Part shown: one piece after another, positions 4,124-49,450 of the stretch
Layout of the letters: each line of letters starts with the position of its first letter
How positions within the stretch are numbered: position 1 is the first letter of the stretch
DNA from: Comamonas sp. lk
Lineage (GTDB): Bacteria > Pseudomonadota > Gammaproteobacteria > Burkholderiales > Burkholderiaceae_C
Direction: 5' to 3'
Length of the DNA: 64,000 nt
Assembly: GCF_900564145.1 (NCBI RefSeq)
Contig: NZ_UOOB01000001.1
Location: 3,226,754-3,290,753, forward strand
The notes under the pieces: model-generated
Database searches by the model: none
Told to the model about the DNA's origin: nothing
Seen by the model: only the letters and a program-made list of their open reading frames with translations
Made by a program: the position numbers and the translations under genes

Positions 4124-4438
4124 ATGCCTCAGAACACAGACCGCTCACCCACCACATCGAGCCCTACTTCTTCCCATGCGCAGCCGCCACGCAAAAGCCG
4201 CCTGGTGCCCTGGCTGATCGGCCTGCCGGTGGTCATTTTTGCGGCACTCATGCTGATTGGCACGCTGATGGACGATCCGCAGAGCAAACAGCGCTGGGTT
4301 GACAGCGAAGCCATCAAGATCTGCTGGAAGCAGATAGGCAAACCCGAGGCCGAGCGCAAAACCCAGGAGTTTCACTCCAAGGACGATTGCGAACGGCTGG
4401 AATTCGACTTCAAGAGCAAGTACGGCGAAAACCCCTGA
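4124..4438 (+). CDS. Hypothetical single-pass membrane protein
   Basis: 104 residues. A Ser/Thr/Pro-rich cytoplasmic N-terminus (1-27) is followed by one membrane segment (about 29-48, LVPWLIGLPVVIFAALMLIG) and a charged C-terminal domain with two cysteines (ICWKQ and DDCERLEF). It reads divergently from alaS and convergently with the DUF4259 gene. I do not recognise a family; GC-rich codon use fits a native gene. Confidence 0.6.
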   Translation: MPQNTDRSPTTSSPTSSHAQPPRKSRLVPWLIGLPVVIFAALMLIGTLMDDPQSKQRWVDSEAIKICWKQIGKPEAERKTQEFHSKDDCERLEFDFKSKYGENP

Positions 4439-4459
4439 AGCGCTTACCTGAGCGAGGCG

Positions 4460-4855
4460 TTACTCCTCGTTCTCGAACTCGCTCTCCTGCTCTTGGTCGC
4501 TGCGCGCCAGGTCGATCATGCGATCAAAGGTTTCCACCAGCGTGGCACGCCGATCACGCTGGTAGCCAGCATCGGGCTGCAGCGCGTCGATGCTGTCATC
4601 CCAGGCCTTCAGGTACACGCTTTTCCAATCCATCAGCGTTTGAGCCGATGGCCAGATGGGTGCCATGCCGCTCTCGGCCATAGTGCACAGCAGCTCGATC
4701 TTGCAGGGCACCAGATCGGCGTCCAGCGCGTCGGCCTGCAGCGACTGGGGCGCATCCATGGCCTCGCTGATTTCATCGAGCAGCTGCGTGGTGATATCGA
4801 TCAGCCAGTCAAGCGCCGCGTCGTTGTCGAAATTGCCGTGCGACCAGGTACCCAT
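4460..4855 (-). CDS. DUF4259 domain-containing protein
   Basis: 131 residues starting MGTWSHGNFDNDAALDWL, the hallmark N-terminus of the DUF4259 family (MGtWghGiFDNDtAaDWl). The rest is acidic and helical, including LQPDAGYQRDRRATLVETFDRM and a Glu-rich tail. The family has no established function; it usually occurs as a stand-alone gene. It ends 22 bp from the convergent membrane-protein gene and lies head-to-tail with smpB, about 93 bp downstream of the smpB stop. Confidence 0.8.
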   Translation of the reverse strand: MGTWSHGNFDNDAALDWLIDITTQLLDEISEAMDAPQSLQADALDADLVPCKIELLCTMAESGMAPIWPSAQTLMDWKSVYLKAWDDSIDALQPDAGYQRDRRATLVETFDRMIDLARSDQEQESEFENEE

Positions 4856-4948
4856 GGTGACTCTCCTTGGACTGAAGCGTTGTGCTGCAGCCCAGCTTAG
4901 TGCTGGCGTATGTCAAAACCATGTCAGCCCCCCGGCCGCAGGAATCAG

Positions 4949-5422
4949 TCAGCGGTTGCGGCCTTTCATGACGCGCTCTACCTCGCGCTTGCCTTCGCGA
5001 TCCTTGATCACGTCGCGCTTGTCATGCTCGGCCTTGCCCTTGGCCAGGGCGATGTCGCACTTCACGTAGCCGTTTTTCCAGTGCAGATTGATGGGCACCA
5101 GGGTGTAGCCTTTTTGCTCGACCTTGCCCACCAGACGCTTGATTTCGTCTTTCTTCATCAGCAGCTTCTTGATGCGTGCCGCATCGGGGCTGACGTGGGT
5201 GGACGCCGTCTTCAAAGGATTGATCTGGCAGCCCATCAGGTACAGCTCGCCGTCCTTGATGAGCACATAGCCGTCGGTCAACTGCACCTTGCCGCTGCGC
5301 AAGGCCTTGACCTCCCAGCCGTGCAGCACCACGCCTGCCTCGTAGCGTTCCTCGAAGAAATAGTTGAATGCAGCTTTTTTATTGTCGGCAATGCGCGACG
5401 ATGTTTCTTGTGTCTTGGCCAT
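4949..5422 (-). CDS. smpB: SsrA-binding protein SmpB
   Basis: Binds tmRNA and delivers it to stalled ribosomes for trans-translation. The 157-residue product has the SmpB beta-barrel with [34 protein letters not shown] and the [19 protein letters not shown] segment, and ends in a basic tail ([16 protein letters not shown]) that enters the decoding centre. I chose ATG at 5422 (MAKTQETS); an ATG-initiated extension of 11 residues is possible but has no family support. It diverges from ratA, a common arrangement in beta- and gammaproteobacteria. Confidence 0.97.
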
Positions 5423-5581
5423 GGAGTATTCGGTTGGGCGCGAGCCCGGGGTCAAAGCTCTCCCTACAATACAGGGTTACCGTCTCGCCTCAGTGCGAGA
5501 TTTTAGTTTCGCATGACGGCCTTGGGTGCAAAGCGCTTGCTTAAGCCCTTGCATCCACCCCATGCCGACAACTCTTTGCCC

Positions 5582-6034
5582 ATGAAAAACGTCAACAAGT
5601 CCGTCCTCATCTGGTATAGCCCCGCAGAAATGTTTGCTCTCGTGACGGACGTGGCTCGCTATAGCGAGTTCCTGCCCTGGTGCGATCAGACCAAGGTGCT
5701 GGAGCAGGACGCAAGCGGCATGACGGCCGAAGTCGGAATGACGTTCGGCGGCCTGAAAAAATCTTTCGTGACCCGCAACACCCACAGCGAAATGGACAAC
5801 GGCGGCAAGCAGGTCAGCATCCGCCTGATCAAGGGCCCGTTCTCGCGCCTGGAAGGGCACTGGCGCTTTCACCCCGTAGGCGACGGCAAGCAGCGCGCCT
5901 GCCGCATTGAGCTGCAGCTGGACTACGGCTTTGAAAGTGGAGCACTGGCCGCCGTGATCGGCCCGGTGTTCGACCGCATTGCCAGCTCCATGGTCGATGC
6001 CTTCATCAAGCGTGCAGAACAGGTGTACGGCTGA
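5582..6034 (+). CDS. ratA: RatA / Coq10-like START-domain protein
   Basis: 150 residues of the polyketide cyclase/START superfamily: YSPAEMFALVTDVARYSEFLPWC near the N-terminus, GLKKSFVTRN in the middle and VFDRIASSMVDAFIKRAEQVYG as the long C-terminal helix. E. coli RatA has been reported to block 70S association, and eukaryotic Coq10 binds ubiquinone, so the physiological role here may be quinone handling rather than toxicity. The ATG at 5582 gives the normal family length. rnfH follows after 5 bp, the conserved ratA-rnfH pair. Confidence 0.93.
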   Translation: MKNVNKSVLIWYSPAEMFALVTDVARYSEFLPWCDQTKVLEQDASGMTAEVGMTFGGLKKSFVTRNTHSEMDNGGKQVSIRLIKGPFSRLEGHWRFHPVGDGKQRACRIELQLDYGFESGALAAVIGPVFDRIASSMVDAFIKRAEQVYG

Positions 6035-6039
6035 ACGCC

Positions 6040-6384
6040 ATGGCCGCACTGCACATCACCCTCAGCTACTCGGCAGCCGCCGGCCAGGTGCACGAGCAGG
6101 AATTGGAGCTGGCTCCCGGCGCTACCGTCGCCGATGCGCTGCAAGCTGCCGGTGGTCTCTCGGCCCTGGGTTTTGCAGACGGAAAAGGTCTGCAGCCCTT
6201 TATAGGCATCTGGGGAAAGCTCTCAAAACCAGAGCATTTCCTGAAGGATGGCGACCGTGTGGAGCTGTACCGCCCGCTGACGGTAGACCCCAAGATCGCC
6301 CGACGCGAACGCTTTGCCCGCCAGGGCGCACGCGGGGCCGGTCTGTTCAAGCGCCAGCGGCCTGGAGCCAAAGCCGGTTACTGA
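6040..6384 (+). CDS. rnfH: RnfH family ubiquitin-like protein
   Basis: 114 residues with a beta-grasp (ubiquitin-like) core: LELAPGATVADALQAAG, IGIWGKLSKPEHFLKDGDRVELYRPLTVDPKIARRERF. The VELYRPLTVDPK segment is diagnostic of RnfH (UPF0125). The C-terminal extension is Arg/Gly-rich. It is co-transcribed with ratA (5-bp gap) and a terminator follows directly. Function is not settled in the family. Confidence 0.93.
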   Translation: MAALHITLSYSAAAGQVHEQELELAPGATVADALQAAGGLSALGFADGKGLQPFIGIWGKLSKPEHFLKDGDRVELYRPLTVDPKIARRERFARQGARGAGLFKRQRPGAKAGY

Positions 6385-18137: not shown

Positions 18138-18740
18138 TTATTTCTTCAAATTGTTATCAACCACTACCGTAACACTTCGAGATTCTCCCCGAAAATCAGG
18201 ATCAACATACTTTTCTTTGTATTTTATGCGAGAATTACTCTTTGAGGCCATTCCATCAAGAACGCCTTTTTGCGGCATAGAAAAATTCACCACATAGATT
18301 CCATCCCCAGGAATTGGAACAATTGAAGAAAATTTTTTAACACTAAATGAAGTAACATGAGTTCTCAAGCTAACAACTTCTACGACATTATTTTCAGCGT
18401 CGACATGAAGAAATGTTGGAGTTAAGCTCAAAACATGAGAAAACTCTTTGTCATTAGCAGATCCGTTGAATTTAACAACTGAAATAGTTGATTCATCGAA
18501 ATTATAATGATAACCCTTTCTATCTACTCCACTGACTTCAACACCTATATCTAGATAGACTAAATTATTTAATTTCAATGGGTTAGCAGAAATTTTTATT
18601 TCAGATCCTGATAGATTTTTTCCTTCAGAATAAAAAGTGCTTATTGCCCAAAAACCAGCGGCAATAGATGCGATAACCACTACAATATTTTGAATTGAAG
18701 AAGTAACCTGCTCTAAGAGCGCCCAATTTATTTTTTTCAT
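18138..18740 (-). CDS. Hypothetical single-pass membrane protein of AT-rich pair
   Basis: 200 residues. One membrane segment near the N-terminus (about 14-36, TSSIQNIVVVIASIAAGFWA), then an all-beta looking extracytoplasmic or cytoplasmic domain with regular strands (NNLVYLDIGVEVSGV, GIYVVNFSMPQKGVLDGM, SRSVTVVVDNN). No recognised family. Codon usage is AT-rich and unlike its neighbours. It is 47 bp downstream of the nuclease-like gene on the same strand and probably cotranscribed. Confidence 0.65.
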   Translation of the reverse strand: MKKINWALLEQVTSSIQNIVVVIASIAAGFWAISTFYSEGKNLSGSEIKISANPLKLNNLVYLDIGVEVSGVDRKGYHYNFDESTISVVKFNGSANDKEFSHVLSLTPTFLHVDAENNVVEVVSLRTHVTSFSVKKFSSIVPIPGDGIYVVNFSMPQKGVLDGMASKSNSRIKYKEKYVDPDFRGESRSVTVVVDNNLKK

Positions 18741-18787
18741 TTTTTAAATAATAAAATATAATCTTGTGTATTTTTACAAAATATTTT

Positions 18788-19864
18788 TTAAGCAGAGAAC
18801 TCTTGCACATAGATAACCACATTACTCTGAGAAGACTCGACTAAATAATTGGCATACAGATTTTGCAAATTCAAATAATCAATAGCTTTCGATCCTATTT
18901 TCCCTTTATTAAAAAGATACTCGAACATTTCACTATTCAGGGAAACATCTTTTATTTTTTTATATTCTAGAATAGGTGTCCCACGCGACGTCTCTGTTTT
19001 GCATGACTCTATTCTACAAATGGGCAAGTGCTCGCCGCTGGAGAAGTACCTCTGATCGGTTTTCTGTAGTTTATCAGTAGGTCGCAGAAAAGCAGCACAA
19101 CATGGAAATCGATAGTCATTCTCTGACTCCGATTGATCGCAAATTCCGTTACAACACAAGAATTTTCTCAACCTTTCTATCTGATCCATCATTCTTCGAT
19201 CAGTTAATCGTAAAGTTTTATCACTCCAAATTTTATACTGCACAGCCACAATACTCACCGTACCGTCTAAGGGATTATGTCTCTCATATATTATGTCTGA
19301 GCCTGTGACATGCTCGGGAACATCTGGGTGAAGAACTCTGACACGCAATATATTGCTATCGGGCAACTCAAAATCGCGCCAGCCTTTACCCGATCTAATT
19401 GATGGAATATTCCTATCTACGTTGTACGCATCTCTGAAAATCAACTGATTTTCAGAGTGAGAGGCAGGTTTCATTTCCTGCTCTGCAGAAGCTAATTGTG
19501 CAAGCTTCTTCTTAAGTTGATCCACTCTTGCTCTATCGCTTCTATTCTTTTCTGCTATTGACAGCAAATCTTTTATTTCATTAATATCGATCTCTATAAG
19601 ATTAATTGGATCAACTACTTCATTTCTCTTTATTGTCAATAAAATAGCCCGCTGGCGATATTCTTTTGCAATATCACTTTCCCTGTCACGGCGCAAAACA
19701 CTCACATCCGGACCAAGCAACTCAGGATACAGCTCCCCACCAAAATTCAGCGCATTTTCATAAGAAGATTTTGTCATATCTCCTTTTGAGGCAATTCTAG
19801 TAATACCACGAAATGCATTAAGTGCAATCCATTCAGAATCAATTCGAGATACGGGCTCTTCCAT
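18788..19864 (-). CDS. Putative Mrr-like PD-(D/E)xK nuclease with Cys-rich insert
   Basis: 358 residues. Residues 100-130 form a coiled coil. At 189-211, GSDIIYERH...VAVQYK matches the D-x(n)-(E/Q)xK active-site spacing of restriction-endonuclease-like folds; the QxK variant is typical of Mrr-type nucleases (D190, Q209, K211). A basic helix follows (LTDRRMMDQIERLRKF). Seven cysteines (237, 238, 242, 255, 256, 283, 288) suggest a zinc-binding treble. Function is inferred from the motif only. AT-rich, with start ATG 19864 and no close neighbour upstream. Confidence 0.55.
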   Translation of the reverse strand: MEEPVSRIDSEWIALNAFRGITRIASKGDMTKSSYENALNFGGELYPELLGPDVSVLRRDRESDIAKEYRQRAILLTIKRNEVVDPINLIEIDINEIKDLLSIAEKNRSDRARVDQLKKKLAQLASAEQEMKPASHSENQLIFRDAYNVDRNIPSIRSGKGWRDFELPDSNILRVRVLHPDVPEHVTGSDIIYERHNPLDGTVSIVAVQYKIWSDKTLRLTDRRMMDQIERLRKFLCCNGICDQSESENDYRFPCCAAFLRPTDKLQKTDQRYFSSGEHLPICRIESCKTETSRGTPILEYKKIKDVSLNSEMFEYLFNKGKIGSKAIDYLNLQNLYANYLVESSQSNVVIYVQEFSA

Positions 19865-20181: not shown

Positions 20182-20324
20182 TGGCCGGGAGGGCGACGGA
20201 TACAAGACCCGCAAGGGGAAGAAGTCCGCCTAGCTGATCCTAGGTTCTTAACCTCCCGGCCACCTTATGGATGCGCGTAAGAACGCTCCATGAGGCATTG
20301 CAAGTCTCGATCAGGAGCGTTCTC
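20182..20324 (+). promoter_or_regulatory. Structured leader of Rha gene 1 with sequestered ribosome binding site
   Basis: TGGCCGGGAGG (20182-20192) pairs with 20252-20262, enclosing ACCC-GCAA-GGG and the C4 target. AGAACGCTCC (20280-20289) pairs perfectly with GGAGCGTTCT (20314-20323), which contains the Shine-Dalgarno. Translation should therefore depend on alternative folding. Confidence 0.6.
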
Positions 20325-21098
20325 ATGTCGCAATCCACTCTGGCTTTCTCGCCATCCGTCACCATCGTTGACGGCAAACCCACCACTCTCAGCACCGATC
20401 TGGCGCGCCACTTTGGCAAGCAGCATCGCAATGTGCTTCAAGCTATCGAGAATCTTCTGCTTCAGCTGGATGCAGACCATCTGCTGAATTTTCAGCAGAC
20501 GGTTGAAACCCGTGTCAATCCAAGCGGTGGAGCGCCGATTTCTACACCAGCCTACCGTCTGACCCGCGACGGCTTTACGCTGCTGGCCATGGGCTTTACC
20601 GGTAAAAAGGCGCTGGCCTTCAAGCTGGCCTATATCGACGCCTTTAACCGCATGGAGGACGCGCTGCACCAGCCTGCGGACACGCAGCGCATGGAGTTGG
20701 CCTTCTCTCTGGCCGCAGAGGCCGCGGCGCAGGTGCACCGCACGGTGTTCAATGCCGTGATGCAAGGCGATGCAGACGAATGGCAGCACAGCCGCTATCT
20801 GCTGAACCTGAATTACGACCGCCAAGGCCAGCCCACCCTGCCCCACGCAGAACCAATTGGTGCGGACCAGATGGTGGTCTCATTCAACAGCCTGCCGCAG
20901 CGCATTGCCGACGGCGAGATCATCAGCGCGACCGATGCGCAGCTGGCCACCCTGGCCACGGCCTGCACCCAGCGCCTGGCTCAACGCGCCCAGCACCGCG
21001 AAAAGCAGACCACCCTGCCGGTGTACGCCAAGCGGCCTGCCCAGTTGCCCGCCAACCAGCAGCCCGAACAGGGCATGCTGCGCATGACGTTCAAGTAG
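20325..21098 (+). CDS. Rha family phage regulatory protein (antirepressor type) 1
   Basis: 257 residues. VDGKPTTLSTDLARHFGKQHRNVLQAIENL and YRLTRDGFTLLAMGFTGKKALAFKLAYIDAFNRME are the conserved Rha/pRha domain (residues about 10-115), a DNA-binding module of temperate phages. The C-terminal part (VHRTVFNAVMQGDADEW...QLATLATACTQRLAQRAQHREKQ) is shared with the Rha gene at 43928-44725 and with the fragment at 62229. ATG 20325 follows AGGAG at 20313-20317. It stands alone outside the main prophage. Confidence 0.88.
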   Translation: MSQSTLAFSPSVTIVDGKPTTLSTDLARHFGKQHRNVLQAIENLLLQLDADHLLNFQQTVETRVNPSGGAPISTPAYRLTRDGFTLLAMGFTGKKALAFKLAYIDAFNRMEDALHQPADTQRMELAFSLAAEAAAQVHRTVFNAVMQGDADEWQHSRYLLNLNYDRQGQPTLPHAEPIGADQMVVSFNSLPQRIADGEIISATDAQLATLATACTQRLAQRAQHREKQTTLPVYAKRPAQLPANQQPEQGMLRMTFK

Positions 21099-42726: not shown

Positions 42727-42881
42727 GCACCGATGGTCGGCGGATGGTTGCGACAAGTCACTGCGACATATGTCTCTAAATCATGTCGCAGCTGTCAATC
42801 GCTTATGCAGCAATAACATCAACAATCAAATTGATAGCAAAGTTAAGATGCGCGGCAACAGAAAACAACGCAGAGGGAGCA

Positions 42882-43805
42882 ATGAACAACTATTACCGAA
42901 TCGCTGCACGGTACTTTGAACAATTTGAAGGAGCGAAGTACTTTCCTAAATGGTGGAATTGGAGGTCGATCCTTCTTGCGCTGTCATTGGTCGCATTTGG
43001 CTCCGCCATCTACTGGTACTTTTTCGCCAGCTCACCTGCTCTCCTAGATAGATGGCCGGTGCTAGTTCCTGAGTTGGTCGCCATCCTCGCCTCTTACTCG
43101 ATCATCGCCTACAGGAATAAAGGTTTGCTTGCAGACCTTCCAGACGATGAGAACGTTGAAAGAGAATTAAAAGTTCACCACGCTAAACGCAAGGCGTTGA
43201 TCAAGCTAACAGATAGCAAACCCTCTGAGTTCCTTCAGTTGCTTGATGAAATCAAAAAGCTACAAGCGCTGGAACAAGAACTGCGCTCCAAAATAGATCC
43301 AAGCTTTTGGAAGACTTTTTGGAACTTCGTTAACCATCCACTACTGCCAAAAGTAGGCGGCTTGTTGCTGATCGCGATTGGAATTGCTTTTGGCAAGGTT
43401 GAGAACATCACCAATCTCAATCCTGAGCGGTTCATCAACAGCCCGATCACTCTGTCGATGCTATGGGACGCGCTACAAATCATTGCCGGATTAGTGATCA
43501 TTGGTGTCATGCTGTATATGCTCACTGGGCAACTCCTAGAACTAGCCGCCTTACTAATTTCGATCAGGTGGCCAAGCAAGCACGGCAACGCAACAGTGCT
43601 CGAATACATGAAGCGTGATCTCATCAAGTACTACGTTCCAGAGCCGAAGCCTGCGGCGGTTGCAAAAATCGACACAGCGCAACCGCATGTCATTGAGCCC
43701 GAGCGGCAAGCAGAGCCCACTTCACTAGGTGTCGCCATCGCTGCACTAGGCATCAAAGCGCTCTACACAGGCTGGCTGAACAGCAAGCCACCGCTCAAGA
43801 AGTAA
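42882..43805 (+). CDS. Phage-borne membrane protein (moron), opposite strand
   Basis: 307 residues. Membrane segments at about 31-50 and 55-78 (ILLALSLVAFGSAIYWYFF, PVLVPELVAILASYSIIAY) and at about 160-180 and 195-230 (GGLLLIAIGIAFG, QIIAGLVIIGVMLYMLTG). Between them is a charged coiled coil (VERELKVHHAKRKALIKL). GAGGGAG before ATG 42882 sets the start; an earlier ATG at 42783 is possible. It runs against the late operon and has its own terminator, so it is probably expressed in the lysogen. No family recognised; superinfection exclusion is a reasonable guess. Confidence 0.7.
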   Translation: MNNYYRIAARYFEQFEGAKYFPKWWNWRSILLALSLVAFGSAIYWYFFASSPALLDRWPVLVPELVAILASYSIIAYRNKGLLADLPDDENVERELKVHHAKRKALIKLTDSKPSEFLQLLDEIKKLQALEQELRSKIDPSFWKTFWNFVNHPLLPKVGGLLLIAIGIAFGKVENITNLNPERFINSPITLSMLWDALQIIAGLVIIGVMLYMLTGQLLELAALLISIRWPSKHGNATVLEYMKRDLIKYYVPEPKPAAVAKIDTAQPHVIEPERQAEPTSLGVAIAALGIKALYTGWLNSKPPLKK

Positions 43806-43927: not shown

Positions 43928-44725
43928 TTACTTGAAGGTCATCATCAGCGTGCCGGGTGGCAGGCTGGCGGCGGGCTTCTGGGTGGTGTAGACAGGTTGG
44001 GTCACCTGCTTTTCGCGGTGCTGGGCGCGTTGGGTCAGACGCTGGGTGCAGGCTGTGGCCAGAGTGGCGAGCTGGGCGTCGGTGGCTGAGAGAACCTCAC
44101 CGCTGGCGATGCGCTCGGGCAGTGCGTTGAAGGAGACGATCATCTGATCGTCGGCTATGGGCTGGGCATGGGGCACGCTGGGCTGGCCTTCGCGGTCGTA
44201 GCCCAGGTTGAGCAGGTAGCGGAAGTGGCGCCAGTCGGTGTTGTCTGCGGCCATCACGGCGTCGAACACGGCCTGCGTGACCTGGGCTGCGGCCTGTGTC
44301 GCCAGACGCTGGGCAAGCTGGATGCGCTGCGGGTCTTGCGCGGGCTTTTGCAGCTCTGCCTCCATGCGGTTGAAGGCGGCGATATAGGCCAGCTTCCAGC
44401 GCAGCGCCTCTTTGCCGGTAAAGCCCATTGCCAGCAGCATGAAGCCTTCGCGGGTCATGCGGTAAACAACATCCTGCCGGGTTGCGCCCTGCATGTTGGC
44501 TGCGCCTTCAATTCGCGTGTCAACGCAGGTCTGCGCAAAATTGCGCGCATCTGGCTCTGGCAATTCAGAAACCAAGTTTTTGATAGCGCGCATCACGTCA
44601 CGATGGCGCTTGCCAAAGAACTGTGCGACTTGAATGCTTGTGGTGGTGACGATGCCGTCGTGAATTGAAAGCTCGGGGCGAGCAGATACGGCAGTTACGG
44701 ACGAACCAGTGGTGATGTCAGCCAT
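43928..44725 (-). CDS. Rha family phage regulatory protein 2
   Basis: 265 residues from ATG 44725. IHDGIVTTTSIQVAQFFGKRHRDVMRAIKNL and YRMTREGFMLLAMGFTGKEALRWKLAYIAAFNRMEAEL form the Rha domain. The C-terminus (FDAVMAADNTDWRHFRYLLNLGYDREGQPSVPHAQPI) is shared with Rha gene 1. CAGGAG precedes the start; a longer reading upstream (from a non-ATG codon at 44992) covers the leader RNA instead. Likely an antirepressor or regulator of lysogeny. Confidence 0.9.
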   Translation of the reverse strand: MADITTGSSVTAVSARPELSIHDGIVTTTSIQVAQFFGKRHRDVMRAIKNLVSELPEPDARNFAQTCVDTRIEGAANMQGATRQDVVYRMTREGFMLLAMGFTGKEALRWKLAYIAAFNRMEAELQKPAQDPQRIQLAQRLATQAAAQVTQAVFDAVMAADNTDWRHFRYLLNLGYDREGQPSVPHAQPIADDQMIVSFNALPERIASGEVLSATDAQLATLATACTQRLTQRAQHREKQVTQPVYTTQKPAASLPPGTLMMTFK

Positions 44726-44890
44726 GACGGGCTCCTGTGCGACAAGTGTTTGAACCCATCGCCTCAGCCGCCAAGCAAAGGTGATGGACCGTGCAGGGTT
44801 GGCGGACCGGACACAGGACCGGCACACCCTTGCGGGTGTCCCCACACGGCCCACCGTAAAGCGGAGCCATGCGCGCGCAGGCATGCTCAT
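44726..44890 (-). promoter_or_regulatory. Structured leader of Rha gene 2 (C4 target region)
   Basis: It contains a perfect ACACCC-GCAA-GGGTGT hairpin (44824-44839), also present in shortened form in leader 1. It also contains CCGGTCCGCCAACCC (44796-44810), complementary to the C4-like RNA at 44948-44963. Confidence 0.55.
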
Positions 44891-44995
44891 AAAAGCAAAA
44901 AGCCGCAGACCATGAAGTGATGGCGCGGCTGCTGCGCCTGTGTAGTTCCGGGCCGCCAAGCCCAGATCACGCTTACGGGCGTGATGACCCAATTC
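44891..44995 (-). ncRNA. C4-like antisense RNA in the second Rha leader
   Basis: On the minus strand: hairpin ATCACGC-CCGTAA-GCGTGAT, then GGGCTTGGCGGCCCGG (44948-44963), then an intrinsic terminator with outer stem AGCCGC/GCGGCT (44925-44930 and 44901-44906) and a TTTTGCTTTT tail. The middle element can form about 14 base pairs with the downstream leader, with one bulge and one mismatch. Architecture equals that of RNA 1. Confidence 0.6.
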
Positions 44996-45019: not shown

Positions 45020-45517
45020 TCATTTAAAAGCTAATGAAAAACCATCTTCCAAGCTATCCATTAGCCCATGTGTTGATTCCTCAATATTCAGAATGAAATC
45101 AGAGTCTGGAGCAAGTTTCTCTCGTGTACTTGATTTGAATGGATCACTTGTTATGGCTTCAAAAAAAACTCCGCAGCATTTAACTGATTTTTCAAACGGA
45201 GATCCATCACATCGTTTAACTCTACCATTTAAGCGTTCAACACGCGAAACTATTCGATAGACTTCAAATGCAATTTTGGATGACTCAGAAACGTCATTTT
45301 GTGGATCTACTGGCTTAGTGTAGTATTCTCGACATGAATCAGCTAACTCACTTGCCTTCTTGCAGATAGCATCTATTTCAGACCTTGTTTCTTTTCTTTT
45401 CTCTCTTAGGTTACTTTGGCTATTGTTTAAAAACCATCCGACCACCACAAGTAACCAAGCTACAACAACAAGATGATCTTTATATGCAGCAAAAAATGAA
45501 ACTTCTTCTGAATTCAT
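45020..45517 (-). CDS. Membrane protein, third gene of STAS/ATPase cassette
   Basis: 165 residues. One N-terminal membrane segment (about 14-31, HLVVVAWLLVVVGWFLN), then a charged helical region (LREKRKETRSEIDAICKKASELADSCREYY) and a C-terminal domain with paired Cys (VKCCGVFFEAI). No recognised family. Starts 10 bp after the STAS-like gene stop, on the same strand; AT-rich like its partners. Candidate effector or anchor of the cassette. Confidence 0.65.
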   Translation of the reverse strand: MNSEEVSFFAAYKDHLVVVAWLLVVVGWFLNNSQSNLREKRKETRSEIDAICKKASELADSCREYYTKPVDPQNDVSESSKIAFEVYRIVSRVERLNGRVKRCDGSPFEKSVKCCGVFFEAITSDPFKSSTREKLAPDSDFILNIEESTHGLMDSLEDGFSLAFK

Positions 45518-45527
45518 AAGACCCTAT

Positions 45528-45851
45528 TTATTTTTTAAATTTATTTTTAGGGTCTAATATATGGGACCAAGCCTTATTAGTGAATGTTTCAATTCTTCCA
45601 GAAATAGTAAGCTTATCCTTTATTTCATCAACCGATAATCCCGCCTCTCTAACCAAGCCACCGAAAGCCTCGTCCAAAAATGATGAGCCCAAAGTCAAAA
45701 CTCCATCTAAATTAACTTCCACCGCCCCCGATTTTAAGGCAGGAACGAGTAGCTCCTCTCTAAATAGCTGCCCAGAAAATGGACCATCTTCACGATGCCG
45801 CCCAGAAGGGCTACGGGAAAAATCCTTGGCGATAACTATTAGCTTTTTCAT
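45528..45851 (-). CDS. STAS-like DUF4325 protein
   Basis: 107 residues. VEVNLDGVLTLGSSFLDEAFGGLVREAG is the conserved core of DUF4325, a STAS-like family (SpoIIAA-related fold) that frequently accompanies GHKL ATPases. GRHREDGPFSGQLFREELL is a conserved-looking N-terminal segment. ATG 45851 overlaps the ATPase stop (ATGA), so the two are translationally coupled. By analogy with SpoIIAA/SpoIIAB it may be a phosphorylation-controlled partner; no Ser/Thr site can be fixed by eye. Confidence 0.8.
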   Translation of the reverse strand: MKKLIVIAKDFSRSPSGRHREDGPFSGQLFREELLVPALKSGAVEVNLDGVLTLGSSFLDEAFGGLVREAGLSVDEIKDKLTISGRIETFTNKAWSHILDPKNKFKK

Positions 45852-46885
45852 TTCTCATCCTTTGGAAATTTAATTATCCAAATAATCAAAGTCCCATTCA
45901 ATCGGTTTCCAAGGTGAGCTGTATGCTGTTCACCGTGATATCGATACATGCCCCTATTACTCATAATTCCAAGTTCACTGTTCTTGTATTTTTTTGTAAA
46001 TTGAAGCATTTCAGATAGTCCTCGACCTCTGTAGGGCAAACCCGTTCTTGTTCTGCCGCCTACCGCAGCAGTTATCAACTCAACATCCGCACGAGCAGTG
46101 TCTTTGGAGCGAACTCCCAGCAACACCTCTTGAACCTTTGGCTTCTGACGAACTGTTTTAGGGATAGTGAGGCCACGATCATGAAGTGCAATAAAAATAT
46201 TATTTTCAGAAACTGTAGAAAATATCCACCATGGCTTCGAATCTCCAGTCTGATAGGCATGATTCCCAACATTGACCATTGCCTCGCTAATACAGCCACC
46301 TAATTCAATTTGCTTTTCTTCCCCTAGAATTGATCTTAATTCAAGAAAAAAGTTCTCCATAGAACTTGTATTTTCTTCAACTTGGCTATTATTGTCATTT
46401 TGATGTAAGTAGTGCCAACGCAGAACATCGCTATGAGAGGACTCTTTTCTCGTTTCGAGCCCCAATTTACCAAGCACACCGACATGCGATAGCATCTGCT
46501 CGACCAAATCTACGCTCGGATAGTTTGCCGAAACTTTCTTCGGATATTTTTTTACCCATTCGTCTACCCATCCCATGAGAATGAGTACACCACAAGGGTA
46601 TAGGTGTTCTAATTTTCGAAAATCAATCTTTACTGACTTTCCGTTCAATAGATGATTATTTATTTTCTCAAAAAAACTCTCAGTTTCTCTTCTCTGACCA
46701 GGTGGCGCATAATATTTAAGGTGGACAGGTGCGGTGCGCACTATTGGCGACAAAAGCACCGCCCGCGAAACCATTACCCTATTCTTTTTTGCCGTGATAT
46801 AGCCACAAAATCTCTTATCTTTTTTTAATAATGCGCGCTGTCTCCTAATAAGCCAATCTAGTCTTCCCCTCGATATTTTTTTCAT
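45848..46885 (-). CDS. GHKL (HATPase) protein with STAS-like N-terminal region
   Basis: 345 residues. The ATP-binding fold is clear: N-box EAMVNVGNHAY (E201, N205), G1 HDRGLTIPK (D236, G238), G2 YRGRGLSEML (G287, G289) and G3 LNGTLII (G331). No His-kinase phosphoacceptor is visible, so it resembles anti-sigma-type serine kinases or Hsp90/MutL-like switches. Residues 84-112 (VKIDFRKLEHLYPCGVLILMGW) look like a STAS-type strand-helix. First gene of an AT-rich three-gene operon inserted between terminase and gpW. Confidence 0.78.
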   Translation of the reverse strand: MKKISRGRLDWLIRRQRALLKKDKRFCGYITAKKNRVMVSRAVLLSPIVRTAPVHLKYYAPPGQRRETESFFEKINNHLLNGKSVKIDFRKLEHLYPCGVLILMGWVDEWVKKYPKKVSANYPSVDLVEQMLSHVGVLGKLGLETRKESSHSDVLRWHYLHQNDNNSQVEENTSSMENFFLELRSILGEEKQIELGGCISEAMVNVGNHAYQTGDSKPWWIFSTVSENNIFIALHDRGLTIPKTVRQKPKVQEVLLGVRSKDTARADVELITAAVGGRTRTGLPYRGRGLSEMLQFTKKYKNSELGIMSNRGMYRYHGEQHTAHLGNRLNGTLIIWIIKFPKDEK

Positions 46886-46983: not shown

Positions 46984-47409
46984 CTAGCACTCAGCAGTTC
47001 GCCCTGCCTCAAAAAGCACTTTTAAAGGGCTCTTGCCTTGCGGTACTCCATCCTGAAGGATCCGCTGCACCTGTCTCACACTAAGACCAAACCTACGCGA
47101 CAGCTCAAGAGCATTGCACCCATCGAAGCTGGCACGTATTTCCTGGGCCACACGCTCGCGCTCCCTCACCCGCTCATTGCGCACATAGACATTGAGCCCA
47201 CCTAGCCGCTGCACATAGCGGCGCACCAACTCTTCCGTCAAGTCCTCTACCCGCTCCACACCATGGCATAGCGCGGCGGCGGCCAGTTCCTCGCGCAGCA
47301 CGGCAATGGGGTCCAGTTTGTTGTTACTGGGTGCGGGAGGGGTGGAGTTTGGGTTCTTCTTGTTCATTGTTTTGATCGCTGGTTGCGCTTGCGCTGCTTG
47401 GGCTTGCAT
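46984..47409 (-). CDS. Mor/C-like transcription activator or HTH protein
   Basis: 141 residues. The Pro/Asn-rich N-terminus (1-32) is disordered. LTEELVRRYVQRLGGLNVYVR, RERERVAQEIRASFDG and NALELSRRFGLSVRQVQRIL form the Mor-family dimerisation segment and helix-turn-helix (HTH about 102-122). In transposable phages Mor activates middle or late genes; here it could control late transcription. Start uncertain: ATG 47409 or 47367 (MNKKNPN); neither has a good ribosome binding site. It follows the terminase gene after 10 bp. Confidence 0.72.
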   Translation of the reverse strand: MQAQAAQAQPAIKTMNKKNPNSTPPAPSNNKLDPIAVLREELAAAALCHGVERVEDLTEELVRRYVQRLGGLNVYVRNERVRERERVAQEIRASFDGCNALELSRRFGLSVRQVQRILQDGVPQGKSPLKVLFEAGRTAEC

Positions 47410-47419
47410 TGGTTTTTTA

Positions 47420-49450
47420 TTAATAGAGGCTCATGGGGGCGAAAAGCTCGTCGTCATCGCTTTCGCGTGATGTTTTGGCCCGTAGTGGCGTGGCATCTGC
47501 CCTTGACTGCTCTGGCTGGGCAACTTGAGCCGCGGTGGTGTTGAAGAGGTCTTGCGGGGGCTGCACGGTTTGCTCCAGCTCCAGCCAGCGGGCATCGGGC
47601 CATTTATGGATGCCAAGGCACATGGCGGCGTGCAGGGCGTAGTTGCGGCAGTCCAGCACCTCATTGCGCGGCCTGCGCTTGACCCAGCGGTACACGTCTT
47701 TGCCGTTGACTTTGACCAGCACGCGCTGCTCTGCGGTGAGTTGTTCGTACCATTCGCGCGGCAGCTTTTGGCTGGTGTGCACGTAGCCGGGGCCGGGTTT
47801 GTCAATGGCGAGCTGGCCCAGCAACAGGTCTTTGGCGCTGTCCACACCCACCAGCCAGAGCTTGATGCCGTGCGATATCTTGCGGCCACGGTAATTGACC
47901 TCTTGCAGACTGCTGGGGCCAACGATGTTGCGGTTGTCGTTGTTGTCGCCCTTGATGGCGCGCAGGCCGGTGAGCTGCCCTTGCGCGCTGCGCACCCAGT
48001 TGTAGACGGCCTGGGTCTGGTCGGAAGAGTCGATGCTGATGGCAGACAGCCCCAAGCTGCCGCCGTGCCAGGCCTGCACGTAGCGCTGCTGCAGGTATTG
48101 GGTGACGGGCTCCCAGTCGGCTTCGCTAGCGGGGTTGCCTTGAATGATGTGGTGGGTAATGGCCCAGCTTTCCAGCCCGCGGCCCCAGGCCCAGATGGCG
48201 ATCTCCCAACGGTCGCGCTGCACATCGACCCCGGCGGTGAGCAGCAGCGCGCCGGCGGGCACGCGGCCCAGGGGGTAGTCTTCGGCCCGGGCTTGCAGGG
48301 CGTGTTCGTCGCTGCTGTCGCCTTTCAGCTCCCAGGTCTCGCCCAGGGTTTCGTTGGTGAAGCCGGTCATGGGCCCGACGTCGCCCGCCTGCAGGGCGCG
48401 GTGGGCTTTTTCAAACTCATCGACGATGCTGACCCAGGTGCGCTGGGGGCTGTAGGCGGCCCAGACATGCACGCCCAGGGTGCGCGGCGGGCGGCAGGGC
48501 TGGCCCGCAGCATCGCGCCAGATGCGGTCTGCGCCATAGCGGCGGCCGGTCTTTTTGCAGACCCAGGTGCCGGTGAGCGGCCAGCCACCGGGCAGGTAGT
48601 CGGCCTGGGTGATTCTCTCTAAGCAGTGGGGGCAGACGTGGTGCACGCTGGCGGGCTGGCCTTTGACCCATTTGAAGCCGTAGGGCAGCTCTTTGCTGCC
48701 CCAGACGAGCGGGTGCTCCGCGCCGCAGCGCGGGCATTCGATGTGGTACTGGACGTAGGCGTCGGATTCTTCGCAGGCGCGCTCTACATGGCACATGCCT
48801 TTGACGCGGGGCGTGCTGCCGCCGACGAACTTGGGGTATGGCGCGCCTTCCAGCCGGCCTTTGGCGAGGCTGCCGGGGTCGCCGGATTTTTCGATGCTCT
48901 GGTCAAAGGCGCTCCATTCGTCGAGGATGGAGACGGCCACGGTGATGCGGCGGTAGGCCCGCGCAGCCTTGCCGCCCAGCAGGTGCAGCACGCTGTCGCG
49001 AAAGGGCTTGTACTTGATGGTGTCCTCCACCCCCTTGCCTTGGCGGCGCGCAGCCTGCACGGCGGCCACGCCGTCAAGCACGGGCTCGATCTCGCTCTTG
49101 ACGTAGCTGTCGCGGTCGTCGTCGGTGGGCTGCCAAAGCGCCTGTTTGCGGCGGCGGTGGGCGATGTTGTAGGCGACGAAGGCGGTGATCATCTTGGTGT
49201 AGCCCACGCGCTTGCTCTTTTTGACGGCCAGCTCTTCGATGCGGTCGTCGCTCATGAAGTCGAGAATGCCGAGCTGAAAGGGCCAGCCGACCCAGCCGCC
49301 CTTCTGGTGGCTGGATTCGCCCGCCAGCAGAAAGTGCTCGGCCGCCCATTCGCTAAGGGTTTGCGGTACATCGGCCCGCAGGCTGGACAGGCCCAGCGCG
49401 GCGGCGGTCTGGATGGCGGCCATGGCTTCCGGGCTGAAGGGTGCACTCAT
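47420..49450 (-). CDS. Phage terminase large subunit (gpA type)
   Basis: 676 residues. Packaging motor and nuclease of lambda-like phages. HFLLAGESSHQKGGWVGWPFQ, VKKSKRVGYTKMITAFVAYNIAHRRRKQALWQPTDDD (adenine/Walker A region), VSILDEWSAFD (Walker B), a zinc knuckle CPRCGAEHP...CPHC, and the nuclease part GVDVQRDRWEIAIWAWG, AISIDSSDQTQAVYNWV, DCRNYALHAAM. It overlaps the small subunit stop by 4 bp. Confidence 0.96.
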   Translation of the reverse strand: MSAPFSPEAMAAIQTAAALGLSSLRADVPQTLSEWAAEHFLLAGESSHQKGGWVGWPFQLGILDFMSDDRIEELAVKKSKRVGYTKMITAFVAYNIAHRRRKQALWQPTDDDRDSYVKSEIEPVLDGVAAVQAARRQGKGVEDTIKYKPFRDSVLHLLGGKAARAYRRITVAVSILDEWSAFDQSIEKSGDPGSLAKGRLEGAPYPKFVGGSTPRVKGMCHVERACEESDAYVQYHIECPRCGAEHPLVWGSKELPYGFKWVKGQPASVHHVCPHCLERITQADYLPGGWPLTGTWVCKKTGRRYGADRIWRDAAGQPCRPPRTLGVHVWAAYSPQRTWVSIVDEFEKAHRALQAGDVGPMTGFTNETLGETWELKGDSSDEHALQARAEDYPLGRVPAGALLLTAGVDVQRDRWEIAIWAWGRGLESWAITHHIIQGNPASEADWEPVTQYLQQRYVQAWHGGSLGLSAISIDSSDQTQAVYNWVRSAQGQLTGLRAIKGDNNDNRNIVGPSSLQEVNYRGRKISHGIKLWLVGVDSAKDLLLGQLAIDKPGPGYVHTSQKLPREWYEQLTAEQRVLVKVNGKDVYRWVKRRPRNEVLDCRNYALHAAMCLGIHKWPDARWLELEQTVQPPQDLFNTTAAQVAQPEQSRADATPLRAKTSRESDDDELFAPMSLY

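Follow-up and report, generated by a model that had tools for sequence, protein, structure and literature searches.

A prophage-borne trio of a GHKL kinase, a DUF4325 STAS-like protein and a membrane protein as a candidate phage-defense module

Introduction

What is a compact, AT-rich cassette of three genes doing inside a prophage of Comamonas sp. lk, and does it belong to any known kind of system? The window, by which we mean the whole 64,000-nucleotide stretch that was analyzed, contains a prophage whose extent, estimated from a matching IMG/VR contig, is ~24.0-54.6 kb. A sequence-only reading had picked out a kinase, a STAS-like protein and a membrane protein at 45020..46885, likened them to anti-sigma partner switches, and suggested a defense or exclusion role. 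We asked how widely the three genes travel together, what their products resemble, and in what company they are found.

Results

A tight, AT-rich operon in a prophage

All three genes lie on the minus strand, and the ORFs confirm the layout described from the sequence. Gene 1 (45848..46885; ORF, Pfam, alignment and model) encodes a kinase of 345 aa. It overlaps by 4 bp (ATGA) gene 2 (45528..45851; ORF and Pfam), which encodes the 107 aa DUF4325 STAS-like protein; we propose that it is phosphorylated by the kinase and inhibits gene 3. After a gap of 10 bp follows gene 3 (45020..45517; ORF and model), for a one-pass membrane protein of 165 aa, the proposed effector. The cassette is AT-rich, as had been noted: its G+C content is 0.396 versus 0.630 in the remaining prophage, level with the lowest same-length segments (sampled every 100 bases).

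Placing the trio between terminase and gpW was right, if incomplete. The gene order is terminase large subunit (TerL, 47420..49450, minus strand), a gene for a Mor-like activator (46984..47409, minus), the trio, Rha (43928..44992, minus), an opposite-strand gene and gpW, so that further genes lie on both sides. Sigma factors came up once here, as a reading of the Mor-like gene that was set aside, its match to SigC being weak and sub-threshold. The Rha-gpW interval holds a 340 aa ORF (42783-43805, plus strand) with several hydrophobic stretches by eye; versions 25-42% identical occur at the same region in nine sister-prophage loci, and the ORF may be a second gene for cargo or for exclusion.

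The three proteins match PHROG families without function (gene 1, E 3.7e-45; gene 2, 2.3e-11; gene 3 weakly, 2.4e-4). PADLOC, which had been suggested as a check, contains no model that matches any of them.

Kinase, DUF4325 and membrane protein recur as a conserved unit

A search with the kinase alone found three phage or plasmid records, at least six genome loci and 18 viral contigs. Among the matches listed, all three genes were present in constant order in 27 of 27 kinase-found loci. L011 among them is the prophage of the window itself, and L027 and L028 are near copies. The rows of L011 and of L028, the near copy of L027, were left out of alignments A2 and A3; alignment A4 was also made without L016, L017, L018 and L026, whose starts are unclear or cut off. 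The third ORF measures 141-196 aa across the 27 loci and has a hydrophobic stretch near the N-terminus in nearly all, this stretch being weak in L013, L014 and L017.

The same picture came from gene 2. In viral contigs, 208 stretches encode DUF4325 proteins of its type, and we read the best 80 of them. Among these 80, the kinase was upstream in all 76 with room for it (at least about 900 bp upstream), and an ORF followed DUF4325 in 80 of 80. Of these 80 third ORFs, 75 matched the membrane-family profile (E <= 1e-3) and five missed it; 74 had a clear N-terminal hydrophobic stretch and six did not. Without the 11 loci that contributed their DUF4325 core to the training set, the kinase was present in 65/65 and the membrane family in 64/69, and counting per cluster (n=47) gave 43/43 and 44/47, respectively. 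DUF4325 was also found in nine of 398 genomes drawn from the phylum (our own included), with the kinase in all nine and the third protein in eight.

Among plasmid and phage records, 15 matched a DUF4325 search and nine new places were read. The records found in this way add Leptospira, Acinetobacter, Vibrio, Aeromonas, Pasteurella and a Helicobacter prophage. At some of these loci the kinase is shortened (L029, L033); no kinase is annotated beside the DUF4325 gene and its hydrophobic neighbor in L032, and no kinase ORF was seen in L037. Across 22 loci, the three proteins have correlated pairwise distances (r 0.73, 0.77 and 0.61; each p 1e-4, 9999 permutations). The three genes are a conserved unit, and since the trio recurs far outside its source genome, their association is not due to chance.

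Other arrangements of similar parts were seen as well. Four genomes of the same family (L045, L047, L049, L050) carry a related kinase of 304-338 aa followed by a STAS-like protein of 94-100 aa with the motif PSAFVNA or SSSFVNA, and no membrane-protein-like gene among the ORFs read. Different layouts again are found in L042 and L043, which include a 410 aa protein that seemingly fuses STAS, GHKL and a second STAS domain, and a kinase of 445 aa whose partner measures 108 aa.

A SpoIIAB/RsbW-type kinase with a basic N-terminal helix

The GHKL ATPase boxes that had been read from the sequence are clear in the alignment. The Pfam match of the kinase to HATPase_c_2 (E 3.5e-5) falls just under the cut-off, and the ATPase-box residues E201, N205, D236, G238, G287, G289, G331 and T332 do not vary in any of the 22 aligned kinases. 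Within the N box (E...N...HAY, E201-Y211; 46253..46285, minus strand, from the alignment with coordinates computed from the ORF), H209 and Y211 are likewise invariant, together with E201 and N205. The GHKL domain spans residues ~156-345; its best profile matches are SpoIIAB and RsbW, and its fold in an AlphaFold2 model of the kinase is closest to SpoIIAB.

In the same model, residues 6-45 or so make up one long continuous basic helix. The segment before Pro53 carries a net charge of +8 to +22 in 21 of the 22 kinases, the exception being that of L019, which lacks a basic segment given the start chosen. No HTH family was found in the kinase by Pfam scan. Our guess is that the basic helix helps in nucleic-acid sensing.

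Behind the helix lies an alpha/beta domain in which strands and helices alternate in the model, and residues 46-150 are a likely, if weakly supported, STAS-like domain. With a profile of this region (22 rows) searched against the PDB, SpoIIAA was the first natural protein, at E 0.044 and behind three designed repeat proteins; comparison with the DUF4325 profile was not significant (probability 3.5). None of the 22 aligned kinases shares a conserved serine in the acceptor region of this domain, and residue 98 is C in eight, A in four, D in three, G, S and E in two each, and T in one. Separately, kinase genes are seemingly broken at L029, L044 and L116 (an IS beside a short kinase, an internal gap and split frames are the types of breakage seen), while DUF4325 and the third ORF remain open.

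A STAS-like partner with a conserved serine pair

Gene 2 was correctly recognized as DUF4325: the Pfam match (E 1.9e-13, residues 26-84) is above the cut-off, and no DNA-binding domain reaches the Pfam cut-off anywhere in the 107 aa protein. DUF4325 genes of the trio loci share the motif SSFL-E--F-G, and both Ser56 and Ser57 are serine in 26 of 26 rows found via the kinase. Their codons (TCA TCA; 45681..45686, minus strand, from sequence and alignment) mark the proposed phospho-acceptor site. When the DUF4325 profile was run against the PDB, the top match was VapS (9z7o), weak at E 0.0053. Ser56 aligns with residue 66 of the 134-residue VapS chain, and if that chain carries an 18-residue tag, as we infer, Ser56 fits VapS S48, the phosphorylation site.

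In four distant relatives paired with a kinase (L031, L033, L035, L036), position 56 is R, A, T or P, while Ser57 is kept in 33 of 33 proteins aligned by eye; either serine may thus be the phospho-acceptor. The best 80 viral loci carry no information on serine conservation because they were chosen by the SSFL pattern. The kinase domain type, the serine pair and the VapS match together bear out the resemblance to partner switching that had been seen in the sequence.

A membrane protein with a helical bundle

The model of gene 3 is confident (pLDDT 93.6) and has four helices, the N-terminal one being the membrane helix, and this first helix is long enough to pass from the membrane into the bundle. 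Basic residues are more numerous after the membrane helix than before it in 25 of 26 third proteins. Judged from this charge bias in the sequences, the four-helix bundle probably faces the cytoplasm. Gene 3 has no Pfam family above the cut-off. Across the 26 third proteins, no Pfam family matches more than one member, no PIN family appears at E <= 0.1, and PHROG matches are few. Fold searches with gene 3 returned a generic helical bundle and no telling match.

A cargo slot shared with defense genes

With TerL as bait for sister prophages, relatives of the window's terminase were found in 80 prophage loci of 115. The trio is in one of these 80, the window's own copy. By tblastn, 12 of the 80 have both the Mor-like gene and Rha, and in the other 11 these two anchors enclose about 2-4 kb of different DNA. 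The 12 slots read (10 of those 11 and two without a detected Rha) have a G+C content of 0.34-0.49 versus 0.55-0.60 for the locus.

PADLOC was run on ten cargo proteins from eight sister slots. One slot (L149) holds a near full-length RT_UG17 (DRT-UG17; E 1.2e-148) with a SLATT_5 neighbor, another (L150) a near full-length type IV retron RT (E 1.9e-138), and a third (L155) a strong AbiLi match (2.5e-82) with a partial AbiLii (3.3e-18). Matches in L151, L157, L158 and L162 were partial or weaker, and the L154 slot gave none. The trio thus occupies a slot shared with defense genes. Sister slots (L149-L165) also hold AAA, RelA/SpoT-like and beta-protein cargo; the cargo of L154, L159, L161, L163 and L165, not or not fully named, may include defense genes. 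Elsewhere in the window, two AT-rich ORFs at 18138-19864 (minus strand; 200 aa and 358 aa, the shorter one with hydrophobic residues in a stretch close to its start; G+C 0.34 and 0.39, respectively) adjoin, by eye, a Rha-like gene at 20271-21098, possibly another cargo slot.

From the flanks of other trios, 10 proteins were scanned against Pfam and 20 against PHROGs. The Limnohabitans trio (L005) begins at the hsdS stop, behind hsdR (a type I pair); no methylase gene was identified near it. Other genes beside or near trios encode ParB (L021, L023), integrases (L008, L019, L025), a terminase small subunit (L027), a portal (L026), a Mu F-like protein (L007), an endolysin (L025), a DarB-like protein (L016), SSB (L018), DNA ligase (L024), an endonuclease (L013) and a YchF GTPase (L008). 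Seven flank proteins had no match at E <= 1e-5. A chromosomal trio with a known regulatory role had been named as a finding that would speak against a defense function. The nearest case is a Rhodospirillaceae MAG (L009), where the trio (4292-6194) sits between accC and aat, all on one strand; the two neighbors tested, biotin carboxylase and leucyl/phenylalanyl-tRNA transferase, are both housekeeping proteins, and no role is known for the trio there.

Discussion

What makes the trio a candidate defense module is its context, namely the defense cargo in some sister slots and the position of the Limnohabitans trio behind hsdR-hsdS. We consider it rather probable that the trio is a horizontally moving immune module in which a kinase/STAS switch frees a membrane effector and the host is protected. 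The nearest precedent is VapKSC. In the published model, its kinase, thought to be activated by single-stranded DNA, phosphorylates a STAS protein, which then releases a toxin; VapS restrains VapC, a phospho-mimic of VapS no longer holds the toxin, and the operon protects against at least one phage by about 2 logs (PMC13373217). By analogy, the gene combination of the trio fits this model.

At rest, the DUF4325 protein would keep the membrane protein inactive, as VapS does VapC. The kinase would be activated by a signal tied to infection or to damaged DNA, for which single-stranded DNA is a candidate. In CapK and VapK, activation by single-stranded DNA is reported to need an aromatic residue (CapK W68, VapK F54; PMC13373217). 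Phosphorylation at the Ser56-Ser57 pair could then make the DUF4325 protein let go of the membrane protein, which may oligomerize or open in the inner membrane. Growth halt or death of the infected cell would precede phage release, and the prophage or plasmid would in this way protect its host. We infer a toxin role for gene 3 and, given that it encodes a membrane protein, the effector step is more likely to be a loss of membrane function than cleavage of RNA.

Other readings of the same genes have to be weighed. The membrane protein could instead be a sensor of phage DNA entry or membrane stress for the DUF4325/kinase pair, whose true target would lie elsewhere, for example in prophage induction. 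We think this unlikely. The many helical bundles that resemble that of gene 3 do include sensor domains, those of QseE and of chemoreceptors, and genes for CI-type repressors lie beside or near three trios (L012, L014, L020). However, there is no constant fourth gene among the flanks tested, the contexts being integrase, ParB, terminase, portal and restriction genes, and the third gene of VapKSC, in the same order, is the effector (PMC13373217).

There is likewise a small chance that the trio is an addiction module of the toxin-antitoxin kind that stabilizes prophage or plasmid and protects against phage incidentally or not at all. Its presence on both plasmids and prophages would suit such a role, as would the toxin-antitoxin-type genes near L003, L004, L029, L030 and L034, but addiction would seem to need less than a kinase of its own that has a further sensor-like part, and some sister slots hold anti-phage genes. 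Plain superinfection exclusion, with a receptor or the entry of DNA blocked by the membrane protein and the amount of this protein set by the other two genes, matches the prophage home and the small one-pass protein but is very unlikely, given that the membrane family is accompanied by kinase and DUF4325 in the loci read (loci found via one of these two genes, so that lone copies would be missed) and that exclusion proteins usually act alone.

We therefore return to the immune module. It is quite possible, and we put this forward with less assurance, that the trio is the first kinase/STAS phosphorylation switch with a membrane effector as its target. Prophages and plasmids would then share a widespread immune system that is so far undescribed, with examples in Pseudomonadota, Leptospira and low-GC phage contigs; its kinase would sense nucleic acids and release a protein that attacks the membrane from inhibition by the STAS partner. 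If the mechanism is true, kinase/STAS switching would be a general plug-in control of immune effectors, with an RNase swapped for a membrane protein. DUF4325, a domain of unknown function, would gain a testable role, and a defense slot would be marked in a prophage family.

How does the trio compare with known systems? The anti-sigma switches SpoIIAB/SpoIIAA and RsbW/RsbV share with it the SpoIIAB/RsbW-type GHKL Ser/Thr kinase. In contrast to them, the trio is mobile, its kinase has a likely STAS-like domain of its own, and, in agreement with the sequence-only reading, there is no sigma factor: no sigma family was above the cut-off in the trio, the four neighbors scanned or the 26 third proteins. 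SiaABC, reportedly a system of biofilm control, includes a phosphatase, for which the trio has no gene. The prophage defense hotspots of Rousset et al. (2022) likewise consist of a small variable slot with anti-phage cargo, flanked on either side by a conserved phage gene, but in another phage family and at a slot other than that from the Mor-like gene to Rha (PMC9122126). In the open-licence PMC literature searched, the trio itself appears only in table rows of the Francisella phage KIRK paper, where proteins listed as 293 aa, DUF4325 and TM follow a CI-type gene (PMC7924643).

Closer relatives are found among kinase/STAS immune switches. CapK and CapS (PMC13373217) are a STAS substrate and its kinase of STAS-GHKL type, a layout that is likely in the trio as well. 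They accompany immune operons, and nearly 20% of them lie with restriction-modification on one side and an immune operon on the other. They are transcription regulators, CapK with an HTH and CapS with a winged HTH, whereas the DUF4325 protein of the trio is a STAS-like domain by itself. More is shared with VapKSC (Chambers et al., 2026, EMBO J, PMC13373217): the order of kinase, STAS protein and third protein, a kinase with a GHKL domain, no HTH and (in the trio likely, if weakly supported) a STAS domain, and a STAS protein with a conserved serine, VapS being the top PDB match of DUF4325. The claim that no named system has this composition thus holds as far as the third gene is one for a membrane protein; with VapKSC, however, a system whose first two genes are of the same kinds has been published. 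The third gene of VapKSC is the PIN nuclease VapC and that of the trio a membrane four-helix protein; the basic N-terminal helix of our kinase is unlike the VapKSC kinase, and the similarity of DUF4325 to VapS is weak. A VapS fragment used as query found no plasmid locus. Because its third gene sets it apart from VapKSC and its lack of HTH domains from CapKS, we file the trio under neither, and in its layout it works like both.
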